DNA of 20,697 nucleotides from Thermodesulfobacteriota bacterium (GTDB lineage Bacteria; Desulfobacterota; BSN033; UBA1163): contig JASEIE010000022.1 in NCBI GenBank assembly GCA_030024065.1, positions 1-20,697 of the forward strand, in the 5' to 3' direction. The position numbers and the translations under genes were made by a program. The first letter of the stretch is position 1, and each line of letters begins with the position of its first letter. A model generated the notes under the pieces. It was not told the DNA's origin, made no database searches, and worked only from the letters and a program-made list of their open reading frames with translations. Positions 9,340 through 20,536 of the stretch are shown in pieces.

Positions 9340-9354
9340 TTTTTTGTTTCATGT

Positions 9355-9377
9355 AAAATGGGACACCGTCTCATTTT
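9355..9377 (+). other. Hairpin between galU and tRNA-Ala
   Basis: A nine-base-pair stem (AAAATGGGA with TCTCATTTT, including one G-U pair) closes a five-base CACCG loop. It sits 16 nt after the galU stop and just before the tRNA. It may be a weak terminator or a processing signal releasing the tRNA 5' end from a galU-tRNA transcript. There is no T-run outside the stem, so termination is uncertain. Confidence 0.4.
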
Positions 9378-9379
9378 CC

Positions 9380-9455
9380 GGGGCAGTAGCTCAGTTGGGA
9401 GAGCGCCAGAATCGCACTCTGGAGGTCGGGGGTTCAACTCCCCTCTGCTCCACCA
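9380..9455 (+). tRNA. tRNA-Ala (anticodon CGC)
   Basis: A complete 76-nt cloverleaf with encoded CCA. The acceptor stem pairs 9380-9386 (GGGGCAG) with 9445-9451 (CTGCTCC) and includes the G3-U70 wobble that identifies alanine tRNAs. The D-arm is GCTC/GAGC (9389-9404). The anticodon stem CCAGA/TCTGG encloses loop ATCGCAC, giving anticodon CGC at 9413-9415 (reads GCG). The variable loop is five bases. The T-arm is GGGGG/CCCCT around TTCAACT. The discriminator base is A9452, followed by CCA 9453-9455. No duplicate of its 3' end was noticed elsewhere in the window, so there is no sign that it serves as an attachment site for the downstream island. Confidence 0.97.
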
Positions 9456-9463
9456 GGAAACTC

Positions 9464-9495
9464 AAAGGGTTAATCGTTTGGATTAACCCTTTTTT
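9464..9495 (+). terminator. Rho-independent terminator after tRNA-Ala
   Basis: A perfect 12-bp stem (AAAGGGTTAATC at 9464-9475 and GATTAACCCTTT at 9481-9492) closes a GTTTG loop and continues into a T-run. It ends the tRNA transcript, and probably the galT-galU unit if the hairpin upstream of the tRNA is read through. Confidence 0.85.
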
Positions 9496-9528
9496 GCAAC
9501 CTCTCTTTTTTGAAAGGATTGAGCCCTC

Positions 9529-10434
9529 ATGAGAATTGGAAAGCCAGGGAAAGTCCAGGAGAGAATTTGGTTTTTAGGCCGTGAGGAATCAGGAGTCTAT
9601 CTTCTGGAAGGGAAGGATGGCTCGATGATCATCAGCGGAGGAATGAGCTACATCGTTCCGGATCTCCTTGGGCAGTTTAAGGAATTTGGAATTGACGAAA
9701 ACAGGATAAAAAAGATTCTGATTCTTCACTCCCACTTCGATCATGTGGGAATCATCCCATTCTTCAAGCGCCGCTATCCAGAGATCGAAATATACGGCTC
9801 AGAAAGGGCATGGGAGATCCTCAAGATGGGAAAGGCCATCACCACCATCAATGAGTTCAGTTGGAATGTCTCAAAGAGGATGGGAAAGGAGGGAGTCCAT
9901 TCGACCTATGATCTCGACTGGGAAAACGATATCAATGGTAAGACGATTCGTGAAGGCGACAAAATCGACCTGGGAGACCTAAAGGTTTCTATCCTTGAAA
10001 TTCCAGGGCATTCCTCGTGCTGTATTGCCGCCTATGTCCCTGAGCTCAGAGCCCTCTTTCCTACGGATGGGGGAGGCATTCCATTCGATCAGACGATCGT
10101 CACCTCCGGGAATTCGAATTACACCAGATATCAGGAGAGCCTCGAGCGGTTAAAGGCCCTTGAAGTGGAGTATTACTGTGCCGACCACTATGGATATGTA
10201 ATCGGTGAGGAAGCCGGGAAGTTCATCCCATTGACGATCGAGATGGCAAAGAAGAAACGGGCCCAGATGGAGGAAGCCTACCGATTTACTCGGGATATCG
10301 ATAGGGCAGCAAAAAGGTTGATCTCTTCCTTTTACGACGAGAACCCTGACTACTTCCTCTCTCCAGAGATCTTCCTCGATGTCTATCGTCAGATGGTCCG
10401 CCACATCGCCAGTGTCATGGAGCAGAAGACTTGA
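9529..10434 (+). CDS. MBL-fold metallo-hydrolase
   Basis: A 301-aa protein of the metallo-beta-lactamase superfamily, expected to be a cytoplasmic two-metal hydrolase. Metal ligands are visible: H67-S-H69-F-D71-H72 (HSHFDH), H161 (in IPGHSSC), D180 (in FPTDGGG) and H220 (in CADHYG). Residues from about 235 to the end form a charged helical tail. The ATG at 9529 follows a GAAAGGA stretch and lies 33 nt past the terminator, so the gene probably has its own promoter. The superfamily includes glyoxalase II-like enzymes, lactonases, nucleases and flavodiiron proteins. Nothing seen here fixes the substrate. Confidence 0.88.
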   Translation: MRIGKPGKVQERIWFLGREESGVYLLEGKDGSMIISGGMSYIVPDLLGQFKEFGIDENRIKKILILHSHFDHVGIIPFFKRRYPEIEIYGSERAWEILKMGKAITTINEFSWNVSKRMGKEGVHSTYDLDWENDINGKTIREGDKIDLGDLKVSILEIPGHSSCCIAAYVPELRALFPTDGGGIPFDQTIVTSGNSNYTRYQESLERLKALEVEYYCADHYGYVIGEEAGKFIPLTIEMAKKKRAQMEEAYRFTRDIDRAAKRLISSFYDENPDYFLSPEIFLDVYRQMVRHIASVMEQKT

Positions 10435-10808: not shown

Positions 10809-11135
10809 ATGAAATATAGAGAAAAAACAGCTGTTAATAAAGAAGGCAAGCAAGTAATATGGAAACACCCAGGCGGTAAATTAAGAAGGCTCGGCCCGAC
10901 TTCCTTAACAGATACTGAGCTTCTAACAGTGATCATTGGTTCAGGAATTAGTGGGCGGTCAGCCGAAGATATTGCTACTGAGATTATTGGTAAGTATTAT
11001 TCATTACAAGGATTAATGGGGAAGACAATCGGCGAATTAATGACCATTAAAGGGCTGAAGGAGGTAAAAGCAACCCAAATAGCGGCAGTCTTTGAGGTTG
11101 CACGAAGAATCGTTAAAGCTTTAGAAAGGGAGTAA
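10809..11135 (+). CDS. RadC N-terminal (helix-hairpin-helix) domain protein, no JAB/MPN domain
   Basis: A 108-aa protein matching only the N-terminal half of RadC-type proteins. The typical SLTDTELLTVIIGSGISGRS motif (about 32-51) is followed by a helix-hairpin-helix segment (IKGLKEVKATQIAAVFEVARR, about 79-99). Full RadC proteins continue with a JAB/MPN metalloprotease-like domain, which is absent here; the frame stops cleanly one base before the next start. A GGTAG-type ribosome-binding site precedes the ATG. The helix-hairpin-helix would suggest DNA binding. Because it is only 1 nt from a DNA methyltransferase gene, I infer it is a DNA-binding partner of that enzyme. It could instead be a truncated RadC from a mobile element. 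Confidence 0.82.
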   Translation: MKYREKTAVNKEGKQVIWKHPGGKLRRLGPTSLTDTELLTVIIGSGISGRSAEDIATEIIGKYYSLQGLMGKTIGELMTIKGLKEVKATQIAAVFEVARRIVKALERE

Positions 11136-11136
11136 A

Positions 11137-13668
11137 ATGTCAGAATTTGATACCAAAATCCCAACTATCGAAAAATCTGAAGTGAATCATCTGAATAGAC
11201 AGATTCCACCCCTGGCCCACACAGCTATGTATAACTGGCATAAATTCTGGTCAAGAAAAACCTGGAACGTGGTAGGCGAGTTTATCAAAACATACTCTAA
11301 GGAAGGAGAGATTGTATTTGACCCTTTTGCTGGAAGTGGCGTTGCGGCCATGGAGGCATTGAAGAATAAACGAAGGGTCATCATTTGTGATATCCTTCCC
11401 GTTGCAACAGAAATCGCACGCTTAACCATCAAACCTTTCTCAGAAAATGAACTTTTTAATGCTTTCAAGAGAGTGGAGTCAAAAGCTAAAAACAAAATTC
11501 TAAGCCTTTATAAAACAAGATGCCGAAAATGTGAAACATCATTCCCCTTCACTTGCTCTATCTGGGAAAACAACACGATGGTTGAAATTCGTTACCAAAG
11601 TTGCCCCCACTGTGGGGATAGAAGAGAAAAAGAGACCCCGCCAACAAAAGAAGACTTAAAATTAATTAACGACTTTGAAAATAAGAAAATTAAAGAATGG
11701 TATCCAAAGAATCCATTATATTATCCTGATGGACAACCTTTTAAGGAAAAACAAAAATATGAATCGATTGACGGACTATTTACTAGGAGAAATCTTCAAG
11801 CCTTGGCTTGGTTAATGGAAGCCATTGAAGAAGAATTAAACAGAGATTTGAGAGATTTCTTAAAAATTGGCTTTACCTCAATAGTTCATTTAGCAACTAA
11901 GATGATGCCTGTTGGAGAACCCAAACCTACTAACCACTATACATATTTCAGTTCACCCGGATGGACTCAACACAGCTATTGGTATGCTGACCGTTTTATG
12001 GAACAAGAGGTTTGGAAGCTATTTGAGAGCGCCATCAATGGGCACCAGGGGCTTATTAAAGCTAAGATCGAATCAAATAAGTATTTTCAGAATATTAAAT
12101 TTGGAAATAATTACAAAGAGGTATTTGATAGAAAGGCTGATATTTATGTTCATACGGGTTCCGCCTTGGAATTAATGGAAGGAATGCCAAAAAGTGCTGT
12201 AGATTATATCTTCACTGATCCGCCTTACGATTCATCCATTCAATATGGCGAACTTGCCTACCTCTGGATTGCTTGGCTAAAAAAGGATGAAGGTTATTTG
12301 GACTATTTGATTTCGAACGAAGTTATACATAACGAGAAACAACATAAAGATTTTGGTGTCTACCATGGGCTACTTTCAAGAAGCTTTCGAGATATGTTTG
12401 AGATTTTGAAACCTGGAAGATATTTGACTGTAACATTTCACAATCCCACCTTTAAAGTTAGAAATGCCACGATCAGGGCAGGCGTTTTTGCGGGCTTTGA
12501 ATTTCAGAAAATACATCACCAACCACTTGGCCAGGTTTCAGCGAAAGCGATGATGCAACCATTCGGTTCAGCACAAGGGGATTTTTATCTTAGATTTTAT
12601 AGACCTAAGCTTTATGAGAGTGTTTCTCAACCTGAAGAAATTGACGAGAAGAGATTTGAGAAAATAGTCGTTGAAACAACCATTGGTCTGTTAGCTGAGC
12701 GCGCCGAGGAGACTCCTTATACACAAATAATAAACTTTATCGATCCTGTCCTTGCTAAGAATGGTTACTTCTCAAGCCTTGAGACAGGTCTTGATGTTAA
12801 AAAAGTGTTGGAAAAACATTTGGGGAAAGAATTCATTCTGGTAGATACGAAAATAGGCGGAGCCATTGGGAAATTATGGTGGTTAAAAGAACCCAATAGA
12901 TACATTAAATATGATATCCCACTTTCAGAGAGGGTTGAGGAAACAGTTTATCGAGAGCTTTTAAGCAAGGGGAAGGTGACCTTTACCCAAGTTTGGGATG
13001 CAATAAGTACAAAATTCCCTAACTCTCTAACATCAGACAGCAGTAGTATTATGGATGCCCTAATCCAATACGCAAGGAAAGTCCATGGTGGTTTTTGGAT
13101 GTTAAAGCCAGATTATTTTGCCCGTCAAAGTCAGCATAACGAGGTTTTAGCTCTTTTAGCTGAGGTTGGAAAAAGTTTGGGTTTTAAAATTTGGATTGGG
13201 AAGAAAGAACAATCAGAATATGCAGATGGTTTGGCAGGGAATAAGAAACTTTCTGAATATGTAAATGCTAATCTTGATAGCATCACAAATGCAGAGAATA
13301 AGAAAACGATCCAGGGAATAGACCTCTTATGGATAAAAAGTAATAAGATTGCAAGCTCCTTTGAAATTGAGTTTTCGACGTCGATGACAAGCGCATTAGT
13401 TAGAGGTTCAAACATTGATTCAGAGGTTCCAAAATACTTAGTCATTCCTGAGGAAAGGGAAGAACAATTTAAACGGAAGCAAAAATCACCAATGTTTGCC
13501 GAACAATTTGAAAAAGACAATTGGAATTTATTGTATTTTGATTCCATCCGGCAATTATATAAGAAGCTAAAATCAAAGCAGCTTGAATTGAACTCGATTA
13601 TTAACAAGAAGGGACCAGCCACCATGCGTCCTGTTATAAAAAATAATGAACAAATGAATTTATTTTAA
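11137..13668 (+). CDS. DNA methyltransferase with predicted PD-(D/E)XK-like C-terminal domain
   Basis: An 843-aa AdoMet-dependent DNA amino-methyltransferase. An HKFWSRKTW segment (35-43) precedes AdoMet motif I D62-P-F-A-G-S-G68. A four-cysteine zinc-finger-like insertion (C129-x2-C132, C156-x2-C159) follows. Catalytic motif IV is D361-P-P-Y364, which points to N6-adenine or N4-cytosine methylation. Residues from about 595 look like a separate region, with a helical part and then E669, D729 (GIDLLWI) and E743-I-E745 (SFEIEF). This spacing resembles a PD-(D/E)XK nuclease core with ExE in place of ExK. If correct, one polypeptide carries both modification and cleavage-type modules. It starts 1 nt after the RadC-like gene, with GGGAG as ribosome-binding site. 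The gene is AT-rich compared with the galT-galU block. The methyltransferase call is firm; the nuclease call is tentative. Confidence 0.85.
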   Translation: MSEFDTKIPTIEKSEVNHLNRQIPPLAHTAMYNWHKFWSRKTWNVVGEFIKTYSKEGEIVFDPFAGSGVAAMEALKNKRRVIICDILPVATEIARLTIKPFSENELFNAFKRVESKAKNKILSLYKTRCRKCETSFPFTCSIWENNTMVEIRYQSCPHCGDRREKETPPTKEDLKLINDFENKKIKEWYPKNPLYYPDGQPFKEKQKYESIDGLFTRRNLQALAWLMEAIEEELNRDLRDFLKIGFTSIVHLATKMMPVGEPKPTNHYTYFSSPGWTQHSYWYADRFMEQEVWKLFESAINGHQGLIKAKIESNKYFQNIKFGNNYKEVFDRKADIYVHTGSALELMEGMPKSAVDYIFTDPPYDSSIQYGELAYLWIAWLKKDEGYLDYLISNEVIHNEKQHKDFGVYHGLLSRSFRDMFEILKPGRYLTVTFHNPTFKVRNATIRAGVFAGFEFQKIHHQPLGQVSAKAMMQPFGSAQGDFYLRFYRPKLYESVSQPEEIDEKRFEKIVVETTIGLLAERAEETPYTQIINFIDPVLAKNGYFSSLETGLDVKKVLEKHLGKEFILVDTKIGGAIGKLWWLKEPNRYIKYDIPLSERVEETVYRELLSKGKVTFTQVWDAISTKFPNSLTSDSSSIMDALIQYARKVHGGFWMLKPDYFARQSQHNEVLALLAEVGKSLGFKIWIGKKEQSEYADGLAGNKKLSEYVNANLDSITNAENKKTIQGIDLLWIKSNKIASSFEIEFSTSMTSALVRGSNIDSEVPKYLVIPEEREEQFKRKQKSPMFAEQFEKDNWNLLYFDSIRQLYKKLKSKQLELNSIINKKGPATMRPVIKNNEQMNLF

Positions 13669-13840: not shown

Positions 13841-14872
13841 ATGGCAACTCAAGATCAACTGAATGGTCTGAAAAATATTGCCCAGAGGTTCCGTACTATA
13901 GACAACGAAAAACTCCTCCGACCATCTCTTGGCGAGGAATCGCTCAAGGGAGAATTTACTCCGACAATTGGAGATTTAAGAAATAAAATTGATTTTGCTT
14001 CTGAGTATGCGCCAAACGTTCATGATACGTACATTTCACCTGTAGTTCAAGTCTTTGAACAGATTTGTGTGGAGATAGAGGCTCAAGCTAACAGGTCGAA
14101 TGCTGAGTATGTTGCTCAAAGGGCCAATTTTTTAAGAACAATTGAAGATCATATTGAGCAACTTCGGCAATATTGGCCACCCTTCATAAGCGCAGCTGTC
14201 GAAATTCGTGGTTTCATTCAAGACGAGGGCTTTAGAAAAGAGTATCAAAGTACTATCGAGTCGATGAGAGAGGAATCTACAAAAGCTCTGAGTCTTATCA
14301 AAGAGGAGGCTTCCAAGACGATTGAAGAAGCTCGAAAGCTGGCACAACAAATCGAAGATAGAGCAAGACGAACTGCCGCACATATTTCTGTTGGAGATGC
14401 TCAGGAGCAGTTCAAGCTTGCTCAAAAGGGTCTCAATAACCAAGTGATACTTTGGGCCGTGCTTAGCGTGGTATTTATCATTGCTTTTCTTCTCGCCGCT
14501 TATTGCCTAGTGAGTATTAAACTTCCCGAAGAATGGAAATGGCATGTAATTTATTATACTGCTATACGCGTAACGATCCTTGCTGCCATTGGAGCCATTG
14601 CTACCTTTTGTCTTAGAATTTTGCGAGCACATTTGCATTTGAGCCAACACAATCTTCACAGGCAAAGAGTAGCTAATAGTATGGCTGCTTTTGTGGAATC
14701 CGCGGTTACTCCAGAGCAAAGAGATTTTATATTGGCTCAGCTGGTCGACGCAGTTGTAAGATTTGGTTGCTCTGGGCTCTTACAGAAGGAGGATGATTCA
14801 ATTTATTCACCAAAAATGACGATCGATACAATAACTCGAAATCTCATTCCACCATCCGTGAAGCAACAATGA
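13841..14872 (+). CDS. Coiled-coil protein with two transmembrane helices, unknown function
   Basis: A 343-aa protein I do not recognise as a named family. The N-terminal 130 residues are soluble and helical. Residues about 130-200 are rich in Glu, Lys, Arg and Ala and look like a coiled coil (for example TKALSLIKEEASKTIEEARK). Two hydrophobic helices follow at about 202-226 and 236-260, separated by a short EWKWH loop. The C-terminal 80 residues contain HLSQHNLHRQRVANSMAAF, a polar helix pattern I associate with several uncharacterised bacterial membrane proteins. It has a strong AAAGGAG ribosome-binding site 8 nt before the ATG. Its stop overlaps the next reading frame (ATGA). In this defence-like setting a membrane-acting effector role is conceivable, but nothing in the sequence proves it. 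Confidence 0.75.
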   Translation: MATQDQLNGLKNIAQRFRTIDNEKLLRPSLGEESLKGEFTPTIGDLRNKIDFASEYAPNVHDTYISPVVQVFEQICVEIEAQANRSNAEYVAQRANFLRTIEDHIEQLRQYWPPFISAAVEIRGFIQDEGFRKEYQSTIESMREESTKALSLIKEEASKTIEEARKLAQQIEDRARRTAAHISVGDAQEQFKLAQKGLNNQVILWAVLSVVFIIAFLLAAYCLVSIKLPEEWKWHVIYYTAIRVTILAAIGAIATFCLRILRAHLHLSQHNLHRQRVANSMAAFVESAVTPEQRDFILAQLVDAVVRFGCSGLLQKEDDSIYSPKMTIDTITRNLIPPSVKQQ

Positions 14873-15177: not shown

Positions 15178-16425
15178 ATGGGAAAGTTTATAAGACAATC
15201 TGTCCCGCGTATCGAAGAATTGTCCGTAAAAAATTATCGGGCCTTAAAGGATTTACAACTTAAAGGTCTTACCCCTTTGACTGTATTTCTAGGCCCTAAT
15301 GGGAGTGGCAAGTCAACGATCTTTGATGTTTTTGCATTCCTCTCCGAGTGTTTTTCTGTTGGGTTGAGAAAAGCATGGGATAAGCGGGGTAGGTTCAAGG
15401 AACTCCGCACCCGTGGATCTGATGGACCAATCGTTTTTGAATTGAAATATCGAGAAAAACCAAATTCACCTATCATTACCTATCATCTTGCCATAAACGA
15501 AGATCGTAAAGGCCCGTATGTGGCCGAGGAATGGCTAAAATGGCGTCGAGCACAAAGGGGTCAACCTTTCCGGTTTCTTGACTTTGAAAGGGGTGCTGGA
15601 CGGGTGATTACAGGAGAAGCGCCAGATGAGCGAGCTCAGCGCATCGAGGAGCGATTGGATTCCCCAGAAATGATCGCCGTAAATACGCTTGGACAGTTTG
15701 CAAAACACCCTCGTGTCAGTGCACTTCGTCGTTTTATTACCGGATGGTACCTTTCTTACCTTACGGCAGATAATACTCGCGTGACTCCCGAAGCGGGGCC
15801 GCAAGAAAGGCTATCAGCAACCGGTGATAATCTGCCGAATGTCATTCAATTTCTAAAAGAACAACATGAAGATAGGTTAGATCAAATATTGAAAACATTA
15901 TCCAGACGTGTCCCTCGGCTGGAAAAAGTGGATGCCGAATTAATGGCGGACGGTAGGCTGTTACTTCAAATAAAGGACGCACCTTTTGATCGGCCAATTT
16001 TGGCTAAATTTGCTTCTGATGGAACTTTGAAGATGTTGGCATACCTCACAGTTCTCTATGATCCTGAACCGCCGCAATTGATTGGAATTGAAGAACCAGA
16101 GAATCATCTTCATCCTCGATTATTACCGGAACTGGCAGAAGAATGTCGGGAAGCATCGGCCCATACTCAGTTAATGGTAACGACTCATTCTCCCTTCTTC
16201 GTCAACGGATTAAGATCCGAAGAATTATGGGTGCTTTATCGTGACGAGAGTGGCTACACACAAGCTAAGAGGGCGGTTGATATGCAAGGGATAAAAGAAT
16301 TCATGAATCAAGGCGCCCTATTAGGCCACCTCTGGATGGAAGGTTACTTTGAAATAGGTGATCCTTTAACAGCGGAAGGCGGTCCAAAGGAGTCAGTACA
16401 TAGAAACTTAAAAAGTGAAGGATAG
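15178..16425 (+). CDS. AAA family ATPase (AAA_21, OLD/SMC-like)
   Basis: A 415-aa ABC/SMC-like ATPase. The N-terminal [18 protein letters not shown] is the opening strand pattern of OLD/RecF-type ATPases. Walker A is GPNGSGKST (39-47). The signature-like [13 protein letters not shown] (278-290) is followed by Walker [14 protein letters not shown] (301-313) with E305-E306, and by the H-loop TTHSP (335-339). The middle (about 85-275) is the variable insertion usual in this family. No Toprim domain is fused to it, but a Toprim-like DUF4276 protein is encoded 6 nt downstream. Known OLD-type defence systems join these same two activities, in one protein or in a gene pair. A GGGGTG ribosome-binding site lies just before the ATG. 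Defence function is inferred, not shown. Confidence 0.88.
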
Positions 16426-16431
16426 CTTTGC

Positions 16432-17046
16432 ATGCATATTGAATTTATGGTTGAGGAACCTTCTGCAGAAGCAGCCCTTTTAAATATTCTTCCCAAGGTC
16501 TTAGAACCGACAACTTCTTTTGCAATTCATCCACATCAAGGCAAACAAGATCTTCTTAGAAAGTTGCCAAGTAGATTTAGGGGATATAAGGCCTGGTTAC
16601 CGAAAGACTGGCGGATTGTTGTTTTGATCGACGCTGATGATGAAGACTGTAGAGAACTTAAAGCCCGTTTAGAGGATATTGCTTACGGTTCACACTTGTT
16701 GACTAAAAGAGTAGCAAGAAACAGTTCTAACTTTCAGGTCCTGAACCGTCTTGCTATTGAGGAATTGGAAGCCTGGTTCTTTGGGGATATCGAAGCATTA
16801 AATGCTGCATATCCACGCATTTCATTGAACCTTGGGAACAAAGCCAAATACCGTAATCCGGATGCGATTACTGGTGGAACATGGGAAGCACTTGAACGAG
16901 AACTGAAAAGAGTAGGATATTACGCTGGCGGTTTTTCCAAGATTTCTGCTGCTCGTGAGATATCGCTGTGCATGGTTCCAGAGCGGAATCGGTCTCACAG
17001 TTTTCAGATATTTAGACAAGGTTTGTTAGAAATAACTGGATCATAA
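16432..17046 (+). CDS. DUF4276 family Toprim-like protein
   Basis: A 204-aa protein with the features of DUF4276. An N-terminal strand is followed by E8-E9 in FMVEEPSAEAALLNILP (Toprim-like first acidic motif), then VVLIDADDEDC with D67, D69 and D70 (second, metal-binding motif), then IEELEAWFFGD (E110, E111, E113). A FSKISAAREI segment lies near the C-terminus. Toprim folds make or break phosphodiester bonds, so a nuclease role coupled to the upstream ATPase is reasonable. A GAAGGA ribosome-binding site overlaps the end of the ATPase gene, 8 nt from the ATG, and the two genes are separated by 6 nt, so they should be co-expressed. Activity of DUF4276 proteins is inferred from the fold, not from this sequence. 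Confidence 0.85.
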   Translation: MHIEFMVEEPSAEAALLNILPKVLEPTTSFAIHPHQGKQDLLRKLPSRFRGYKAWLPKDWRIVVLIDADDEDCRELKARLEDIAYGSHLLTKRVARNSSNFQVLNRLAIEELEAWFFGDIEALNAAYPRISLNLGNKAKYRNPDAITGGTWEALERELKRVGYYAGGFSKISAAREISLCMVPERNRSHSFQIFRQGLLEITGS

Positions 17047-17280
17047 AGTACATTCAGGTTCGAATACAAAAAGAGGGACGTTCATGAAATTATGACTTAC
17101 TTTGCTAATATATTTGGGGGAGAGGTGGGTCAAAGCGATTCGTGTACTCGGCATGAATAATGGTTTTGTGTTGTAAGTTCCCTTCCGGTCTTAATGGCAG
17201 AAACTGTTAGCCAAAATTGGAGGCAGTAGGGTCAGGTCTCAACCTTCAACAGGTTGGGCGGCTCAGATAGAGGCTCAGGT
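17047..17280. other. Composition boundary before the HEPN gene
   Basis: No supported gene; the open frames here are about 20 codons or fewer. The DNA changes from AT-rich to GC-rich across this gap. A small hairpin, CAACCT (17240-17245) with AGGTTG (17251-17256) around TCAAC, lies next to GGGTCAGGTCTC, which may be the edge of a repeat or insertion. No terminator with a T-tract was found for the ATPase-DUF4276 pair. Confidence 0.35.
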
Positions 17281-18579
17281 ATGCCGGATCAAGTACAATT
17301 GACTCCCTCGGAAAAGGTGACACTGATCGCCGCGATCGAGCGCGCACTACTTGTCGCTGCCAAGGCGCGCAGCGTCGACCATGGGTTGCTCTTTCAGGTC
17401 CTCGCTCTCCGAGACGCGCCAGACTCAGCGCTAATGGAACTCCGCGAACTTCTGAAGGTGATTCAGGCGACACCCGCACTGGAGTTCTTCGACCACGCCT
17501 ATCAATGCGCCCTCGGGAACTGGGAAGATGTGAACTTTCGCTTTCTTGTCCAGTGGCTCATCTCACGCGGGCACCAAGTTGGAGCTAAGCAAACAGTCAA
17601 TGACGTAGCTCGATACTTAGAATCCGAGACTATAGAGGTTACGGCAATTCTGGCGATTGATGGGTTCGGCGTCAAACGCAACATCGAACTTGGTGAGTAC
17701 GAATTGGTTGCGTGGAATGACGTAGCAATGACCGACACCAAGTGGCATGTCGCAGCACGCGGTTTGTTCGGCGGCAAAACTCCCACCGCAGCCGTCATAC
17801 AACGACATGAAATCCAGCGGGTACATGTTCGTCCGTGGGATAGCCCAGGTGCCAACGTTCCACTGTCAATCGAACCAGCTCTCGATATCCTTCGCTGTGT
17901 GACGGCGGTAGCTGGCGCGGGATTTCGCTTGCTTCACTATTGGTTTGAACCCCCGGAATGGGCGCCGTGGGCGGTAAGCCGTTCTACCTTCGGAGTCGAC
18001 ACGACAGCTTTTGCGCGGCCAGTTGAATTAGACGAAGTAGTAGTGCCGCTACTTCTTGAGAGCACATCACGTCTTCGGGAATCGGATGAAAGCAATCGTC
18101 TGCGGCTTCGGGTGCCGCTTGATCGGCTGAATCGGTCCTATCTCGCCGGCATACGCAGCGTCGACAAGGCAATTGAGCTTGGAATAGCACTTGAGTCGCT
18201 ATACGCTCCCGCCAAGCTATCTGAAGGCATCGCTTTCGCCGTCCGGACACGCGCGGCAAGGTTCCTCGGTGGTTTGCCTGATGAGCGCCGCAAAATAGCA
18301 AGAATACATCGGGACGTCTACGACCTGAGGTCCCGCGCAGTGCATGCCGGACGCTTTGACGCTGTAGGAGCACCTAAGAAGTGGCGCGATCAAGCCCTTG
18401 TCCTCCAGGTGCTTGAAGAAGGGCAACGTGTCGTCGGCCAATCGTTGATCAAAGTAATACGAGAGGGCGAACCGAACTGGGAAGAATTCGACATCGGGAA
18501 TGCGGAACCAATTTCGGCTACCGTTGACGCCGTCCAACCCGACAGTACAGCGGACCCGCAGCAAGCAGCGGGCCGCTGA
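17281..18579 (+). CDS. HEPN-domain protein (ApeA-like), putative ribonuclease effector
   Basis: Numbering from ATG 17281 gives 432 aa. The C-terminal part, about 285-395, has the pattern of the Apea-like HEPN domain: SVDKAIELGIALESLY (293-308), a helix ending FLGGLPDER, and YDLRSRAVHAGRF containing R350-x4-H355, the R-x4-6-H ribonuclease motif. The N-terminal 280 residues are mixed alpha/beta of unknown family. Many HEPN proteins are RNases used in abortive infection, and ApeA is one such. Here the function is inferred from the motif and neighbourhood. The frame is also open from a TTG at 17254, but ATG 17281 is preferred because AGAGG lies about 8 nt before it. The gene is visibly more GC-rich than its neighbours, suggesting a separate acquisition. 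Confidence 0.8.
   Translation: MPDQVQLTPSEKVTLIAAIERALLVAAKARSVDHGLLFQVLALRDAPDSALMELRELLKVIQATPALEFFDHAYQCALGNWEDVNFRFLVQWLISRGHQVGAKQTVNDVARYLESETIEVTAILAIDGFGVKRNIELGEYELVAWNDVAMTDTKWHVAARGLFGGKTPTAAVIQRHEIQRVHVRPWDSPGANVPLSIEPALDILRCVTAVAGAGFRLLHYWFEPPEWAPWAVSRSTFGVDTTAFARPVELDEVVVPLLLESTSRLRESDESNRLRLRVPLDRLNRSYLAGIRSVDKAIELGIALESLYAPAKLSEGIAFAVRTRAARFLGGLPDERRKIARIHRDVYDLRSRAVHAGRFDAVGAPKKWRDQALVLQVLEEGQRVVGQSLIKVIREGEPNWEEFDIGNAEPISATVDAVQPDSTADPQQAAGR
18548..18578 (+). other. GC-rich hairpin ending at the HEPN stop codon
   Basis: CAGCGGACCCGC (18548-18559) pairs with GCGGGCCGCTG (18568-18578), leaving A18554 bulged and an eight-base loop. It spans the last codons and touches the TGA. 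There is no T-tract. It could slow 3' decay of the transcript or mark the edge of the acquired segment. Confidence 0.45.
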
Positions 18580-20180: not shown

Positions 20181-20536
20181 GGGTTCTGTGTCGCGTCTAC
20201 ACTATTCACAGTTAGGAATGGGGTTAAATCTTTAAGGGCTGTTGAAAAACTCGTCTGTTTCCATTTCTTACTTGCGTTGTTTTGGCGTGAATTGACCCTA
20301 ATGTTGCATTGAAAAGGGAGGCGAGTGTGCTTCCAATCCTTTACAATTGCGGAATTTTATATGTTTTATGGATAACATGCGATGTCACCTGATGTGACCT
20401 TTGTGATATGCTTGAAAACTGGGTAGCAAAACGTTTAGAGGTGCCGCTGTAAAGGTTTTCCAGCACACCCACCTCCCTTTTCATATAATTTTTATCAACT
20501 GTGAGGTTGATTTATCTTCTCTCACGCTTTTACATT
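20181..20536. other. Intergenic region after the island, no gene
   Basis: No gene is supported. GGGCTGTTGAAAAACTCG near 20238 looks like the kind of sequence found at insertion-sequence ends or interspersed repeats, but no partner end was found. GTCACCTGATGTGAC near 20383-20397 is a small inverted repeat that could bind a regulator. A perfect TATAAT at 20484-20489 could be the -10 box for the following gene, but no good -35 box sits 17 bp upstream. Confidence 0.35.

Follow-up and report, generated by a model that had tools for sequence, protein, structure and literature searches.

Of the bacterial defences, restriction-modification (RM) is the best known, and its single-chain type IIG enzymes are generally assumed to work without a partner. 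What, then, does a small RadC-like protein do beside a large methyltransferase? The question is raised by a stretch of 20,697 nucleotides from a Thermodesulfobacteriota bacterium (contig JASEIE010000022.1 of assembly GCA_030024065.1), analysed as a whole and called the window. According to its open reading frame (ORF) calls, 1 nt separates the stop of a gene encoding the RadC N-terminal region without the JAB/MPN half from the start of a methyltransferase gene. We call the small protein RN, for RadC-N-only, and the large one the enzyme. A sequence-only reading had pointed to the 1-nt spacing, the clean stop of RN and residues D729, E743 and E745 of the enzyme, and all of these were found where it placed them (Table 1). 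Our analysis points to the RN family as a helper in the DNA defence of bacteria which has gone unrecognised.

Pairing of RN with the enzyme

A scan of genome contigs yielded 259 relatives of the enzyme, and the best 80 were retained as loci. An RN ORF was located directly upstream of the enzyme in 44 of the 80, which carry 18 phylum-level labels (including that of L067) and comprise four unassigned genomes; labels were taken from metagenome-bin records. Thus, the pair is not confined to the window's genome, a case which the sequence-only reading had raised against itself. The 36 loci counted as lacking RN include L021 and L045, where the contig begins inside the enzyme gene, and L053, L057 and L060, with less than 240 nt upstream. 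In an enzyme tree calculated by a quick method, the clade of the window comprised 50 members, 44 with and six without RN; two of the six are cut by a contig end, so that RN is present in 44 of 48 evaluable members. Beyond this clade, 30 of 31 loci, mostly archaeal and some bacterial, lacked RN, L067 being the exception. Furthermore, distances between RN proteins and between enzymes were correlated (r 0.65, 43 pairs). No other neighbour family was comparably shared by the enzyme loci within 3.5 kb on each side where the contig allowed, and in 34 loci without RN, the ORFs upstream of the enzyme revealed no alternative conserved partner. Chance adjacency was rejected on the upstream position in 44 of 80 loci, the retention within the clade, the correlated distances and the comparison with RadC genes given below. 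RN and the enzyme are an old, stable two-gene unit in distant genomes.

RN matched Pfam UPF0758_N (E 4.8e-16, 59 bits, cut-off 27.1), its sole Pfam family at E 1e-3. It covered only positions 3-83 of the 212 of the NCBIfam RadC model, scoring 64.7 bits where 180 are required; the ORF stops after the N-terminal region, and a JAB/MPN domain is absent. These matches confirmed the description of RN as a RadC N-terminal protein without its JAB/MPN half. Most of 120 listed relatives are 108 residues long, in a search which excluded proteins more than 1.75 times as long as the query and hence full-length RadC; their database names, where given, often read 'DNA repair protein RadC'. As a rule, a helix-hairpin-helix domain holds DNA by its backbone. 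RN, in which two such motifs were placed by eye, would bind DNA, and its fold suggests that it may target DNA or sense branches. In 15 of the 80 enzyme loci RN is a two-domain tandem in one chain, and such copies might work as built-in dimers; L059, with RN and enzyme split over frames, was set by hand as a 16th tandem on the enzyme tree.

RadC (UPF0758) shares the N-terminal helix-hairpin-helix region, but RN lacks the JAB/MPN half and carries W-x-H-P-G-G-K-L in place of the PRE-type start of RadC. RN-only and RadC genes were told apart by profile score, frame length, this HPGGKL-type signature and the JAB motif. The signature is variable in some members; it separated RN-only proteins from RadC proper in alignments and in a split by regular expression, with the exception of L200, a JAB-bearing protein which also fits the loose form of the pattern. 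In a tree of 156 domains (104 columns, quick method), a branch with 99% SH-aLRT support parted the RN-only proteins from RadC proper and a single fusion. Recent truncation of a full RadC, the second case which the sequence-only reading had held against itself, was rejected on this split and on the 108-residue length of most relatives listed by the length-limited search. A RadC-type match was also present in nine of ten genomes holding an RN-type match; hence, RN is no substitute for RadC.

The fusion (L229:3398-6379, minus strand) is a 994-residue frame consisting of a RadC-proper-type N-terminal domain and a DUF1156-like methyltransferase. It was set aside as Rosetta-stone evidence because it comes from a single genome and lies on the RadC-proper side of the tree. 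Its methyltransferase part was matched in three of 149 genomes, its own included.

RN ahead of other restriction-modification genes

RN-profile surveys covered 395 genomes each of the phyla of L008, L034 (Bacteroidota) and L012 (Nitrospirota), and 392 of the phylum of L018 (Planctomycetota). Forty-six evaluable RN genes were hand-picked from these surveys, two of whose match lists end at RadC-level scores; one gene came from the Bacteroidota, and eight are the loci which supplied the reference enzymes. In 42 of the 46 cases, a script located an RM gene at most 2.5 kb downstream and in the orientation of RN. L221 was missed by the overlap limit of the script yet has the window's enzyme, so that 43 of 46 RN genes precede an RM gene; none was found downstream in L213, L218 and L232. 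The RM gene was assigned by family scans and not by blastp in L112, L216, L217 and L230, by a family scan with a weak blastp match in L206, and from short or partial ORFs in L111, L091 and L208, the last having a full IIG gene further on. Omitted from the 46 were genomes reached via the enzyme (G001, G002, G004, G006, G009), a RadC-type match (G391), the fusion (G1328), short or RadC-level matches (e.g., G771, G1111:C81, G1495:C14, G1560:C67:55) and seven contig-end cases (G1111:C105, G1049:C105, G1049:C74, G806, G873, G1019, G1420).

RadC genes served as control. An RM-like ORF was located within about 1.5 kb on either side for 37 of 49 RN-only genes, while all 53 RadC-proper genes lacked one (Fisher p 1e-17, indicative only owing to genome kinship; L129, L161, L182 and L184 stood in neither class). 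The count was 29 of 41 RN genes without the eight reference-supplying loci and 24 of 36 when the five enzyme-reached genomes were removed as well.

Partners of RN include large proteins matching PADLOC REase_MTase_IIG or similar models. At least three architectures can be told apart among them (IIGa, IIGb, IIGc); their mutual identity is only 20-28%, over 118-326 residues, and none of them matched the window's enzyme by blastp at E 1e-3. RN is found with HsdR-, HsdS- and HsdM-like type I genes in L110, and elsewhere with an enzyme carrying a Type ISP specificity domain, with a type II methyltransferase ahead of a DpnII/BanI-like protein, or with a type II endonuclease or an HNH restriction enzyme. 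Almost identical RN proteins precede different enzymes, for example IIGb in L205, IIGc in L208 and IIGa in L209. Hence, RN is a partner-agnostic RM companion. The RN-enzyme partnership of the sequence-only reading stands as a stable pair but was drawn too narrowly, given the many kinds of RM genes behind RN and the occurrence of the enzyme without RN in archaea and other lineages.

DNA similarity was detected in 345 pairs of RN loci, each judged by its single best alignment; in 313 of them, the labels of the partners were different or unassigned (loci outside the partner label list counted as different). In these 313 pairs, the similar stretch opens at the start codon of RN (median +1) and runs to near its stop (median +281). 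RN thus persists as its surroundings change, similarity being largely bounded by its ORF. Such retention amid partner exchange favours a role connected with DNA or with a step which RM systems share, and disfavours a control protein bound to an operator. We tentatively consider, as a possibility short of probable, that RN is a widespread partner-agnostic RM subunit or helper which was repeatedly recruited by different RM enzymes as a sensor of DNA structure, and that this structure, beyond site methylation, licenses or vetoes cutting.

Control (C) proteins of RM systems have a helix-turn-helix (HTH) fold and are likewise encoded by a small gene ahead of unrelated RM genes. RN could be a regulator of this kind which governs the sequence of methylation and cutting when RM genes enter a new host; its gene position, its indifference to the partner and its occasional covalent tandem agree with the C-protein layout. 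However, RN has helix-hairpin-helix motifs, and Pfam and NCBIfam revealed no HTH domain. Nor was a shared operator seen: similarity in the 313 pairs begins at the start codon of RN itself, and no upstream DNA was common to most of 33 RN loci, where operators of single loci were not sought. We therefore regard a regulator as quite improbable.

RN could also be a hitchhiking cassette, which marks a recombination-prone slot for RM exchange and does nothing for the enzyme. In favour of this, similarity between loci that otherwise differ is largely limited to the ORF of RN, and in some loci RN is separated from the RM gene by further small genes, including one with a PIN domain. The tight spacing and the conserved RN-specific signature, together with 44 of 48 members retaining RN and correlated divergence in the window's clade, render this explanation very unlikely.

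Small genes were observed right behind RN in L205, L206, L210 and L213, between RN and the RM gene where one follows; a PIN-domain gene is among them in L205 and L213. At L203:1439-7365, on a 2.37-Mb contig, an IS21-type element encoding rve and IstB proteins seems to have split the IIG gene behind RN, a C-terminal piece of which lies on the far side of the element.

The link to mobile elements which the sequence-only reading had drawn was not borne out. Scans of viral contigs gave no confirmed relative of RN or the enzyme. Among plasmid records, 19 gave matches to an IIG-type RN, none reaching 60% identity or 80% coverage, and the annotated ones are RadC or JAB proteins; for the window's RN, two phage records lacking annotation came up at 34%. 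A viral, plasmid or phage origin thus found no support in these comparisons.

The enzyme and the proposed role of RN

The enzyme matched the DNA methyltransferase families N6_N4_Mtase and MethyltransfD12 (Pfam). Its top PADLOC match was PglXI (149 bits over residues 161-491), indicating a methyltransferase core related to that of DUF1156/PglX-type proteins; however, it scored 20.1 bits with the NCBIfam model DUF1156_antiphage, far below the cut-off of 1000, and no other BREX protein was among the PADLOC matches listed for seven window proteins scanned. A structure search with the whole enzyme was filled by methyltransferases, and the C-terminal part was therefore modelled by itself. It was predicted (pLDDT 92) to form a winged helix followed by a PD-(D/E)xK-like nuclease domain.

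An alignment of 76 sequences comprised the window and 75 loci; from the 80 retained, five whose frames are split or short had been omitted. D729, E745, T748, H667 and the DPPY motif were each present in all 76 sequences and E743 in 75, L053 having D at this position. Conserved acidic active-site residues typical of PD-(D/E)xK nucleases are thus present, in an E-x-E arrangement as in BamHI. PF27126 is annotated on most relatives of the enzyme, alone on the partial proteins P0178, P0181 and P0184, and is missing from P0177 and P0182; a Pfam scan of the window's enzyme did not report it. The C-terminal part may therefore already carry a family name.

According to motifs and fold models, a single chain unites the methyltransferase with a nuclease-type domain, as in type IIG (IIC) enzymes and as proposed by the sequence-only reading; the enzyme would both methylate and cut DNA. 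A further tie to type IIG is that RN also precedes enzymes called REase_MTase_IIG by PADLOC. Classic IIG enzymes have an N-terminal nuclease, then the methyltransferase and a C-terminal specificity domain. The window's enzyme differs from this layout by its C-terminal nuclease-type domain (residues 658-811) behind a winged helix, by the motif order I then IV (TDPPY) and by a zinc-ribbon-like insert, which might bind zinc.

With moderate confidence, we propose that RN and the enzyme constitute a compact RM unit in which RN helps with DNA engagement. The enzyme, a single-chain methyltransferase with a PD-(D/E)xK-type nuclease, would methylate a host site and cut DNA without that mark. RN, a small helix-hairpin-helix accessory co-translated with it, would help it to engage or discriminate DNA and would act via DNA, its backbone or structure, and not via one particular enzyme family. 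What was observed is the gene pairing, its conservation, the predicted folds, the conserved catalytic residues and the link of RN to several kinds of RM genes.

RN might instead restrain the enzyme by binding branched DNA or single-strand/duplex junctions at host forks and recombination intermediates, and thereby keep the nuclease off new, not yet methylated host DNA. Such self-protection agrees with the blindness of RN to the enzyme family, with its fold and with the presence of a RadC-type match in nine of ten RN-type genomes, but many relatives of the same enzyme manage without RN, and we judge it unlikely. RN would more likely aid the enzyme. A conserved small gene before many IIG and other RM types would be an overlooked subunit or safety factor. 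Its role could explain why some cloned enzymes are inactive or toxic alone, and the vague question of what the RadC N-terminus does becomes testable via RN.

In the passages available from the literature on RadC with restriction-modification, type IIG enzymes, defence islands and helix-hairpin-helix domains, no description of an RN-RM pair was found. The available text of PMC5512222 reports the RadC JAB domain fused with a helix-hairpin-helix domain and proposes a nucleic-acid role, and that of PMC12458937 refers to RadC/ArdB antirestriction systems on mobile elements; the pair is described in neither, nor in the RadC passages of PMC8545432.

Surroundings of the pair in the window

Table 1. 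Positions of the features discussed, numbered from the first nucleotide of the window
Feature	Position	Strand	Remarks
62-aa ORF	9344-9532		overlaps tRNA-Ala gene
tRNA-Ala gene	9380-9455		
RN gene	10809..11135	+	108 aa; TAA at 11133-11135
RN signature W-x-H-P-G-G-K-L	10860..10883	+	residues 18-25; alignments
RN helix-hairpin-helix-like motifs		+	two, about residues 33-60 and 75-100
AAGGGAG, Shine-Dalgarno-like	11126..11132	+	overlaps last RN codons; by sequence
Methyltransferase gene	11137..13668	+	ATG at 11137; 843 aa, C-terminal nuclease-like domain
Motif I, DPFAGSG	11320..11340	+	residues 62-68; sequence, alignment
Zinc-ribbon-like insert, CxxC...CxxC	11521..11613	+	C129, C132, C156, C159; between motifs I and IV
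Catalytic motif IV, TDPPY	12214..12228	+	residues 360-364; motif order I then IV
Winged-helix domain	12922..13104	+	residues about 596-656; model m310d596a0ad1, winged-helix matches
PD-(D/E)xK-like nuclease domain	13108..13569	+	residues about 658-811; contains H667
D729	13321-13323	+	nuclease-like domain
E743	13363-13365	+	nuclease-like domain
E745	13369-13371	+	nuclease-like domain
343-aa protein	13841-14872		
AAA_21 ATPase and DUF4276 pair	15178-17046		
441-aa ORF	17254-18579		TTG start
Inverted repeat	20310-20483		36-nt arms, 102 nt spacing

The placement of the Shine-Dalgarno-like AAGGGAG would fit translational coupling of RN and the methyltransferase. The two genes lie 1.35 kb downstream of a tRNA-Ala gene, in a region from about 10.5 to 16.5 kb with a G+C content of 0.36-0.46 as compared to about 0.50 before it. 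An AAA ATPase/DUF4276 pair on the 3' side of the RM pair matched PADLOC HEC-01A (578 bits) and HEC-01B (296 bits). The low-G+C stretch with the RN pair and the HEC-01-like pair is probably an acquired defence island.

The AAA_21/DUF4276 pair of the window is 84-87% identical to a pair at L109:6437-8316 beside an RN-IIG system, and at L103:7689-8501, again an RN-IIG locus, an ATPase cut by the end of the stretch is 86% identical to that of the window. This module seems to co-travel with RN-RM units. The 343-residue protein shows a coiled coil and a membrane segment by eye; it had no Pfam match, only weak LeoBC-like PADLOC scores and no relative at E 1e-15 among the loci compared. No Pfam or PADLOC match at E 1e-3 was obtained for the 441-residue ORF, and the 62-residue ORF overlapping the tRNA-Ala gene is very likely not a real gene. 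Right 3' of an AAA_14/DUF4143 gene lies an inverted repeat, the arms of which are 83% complementary.
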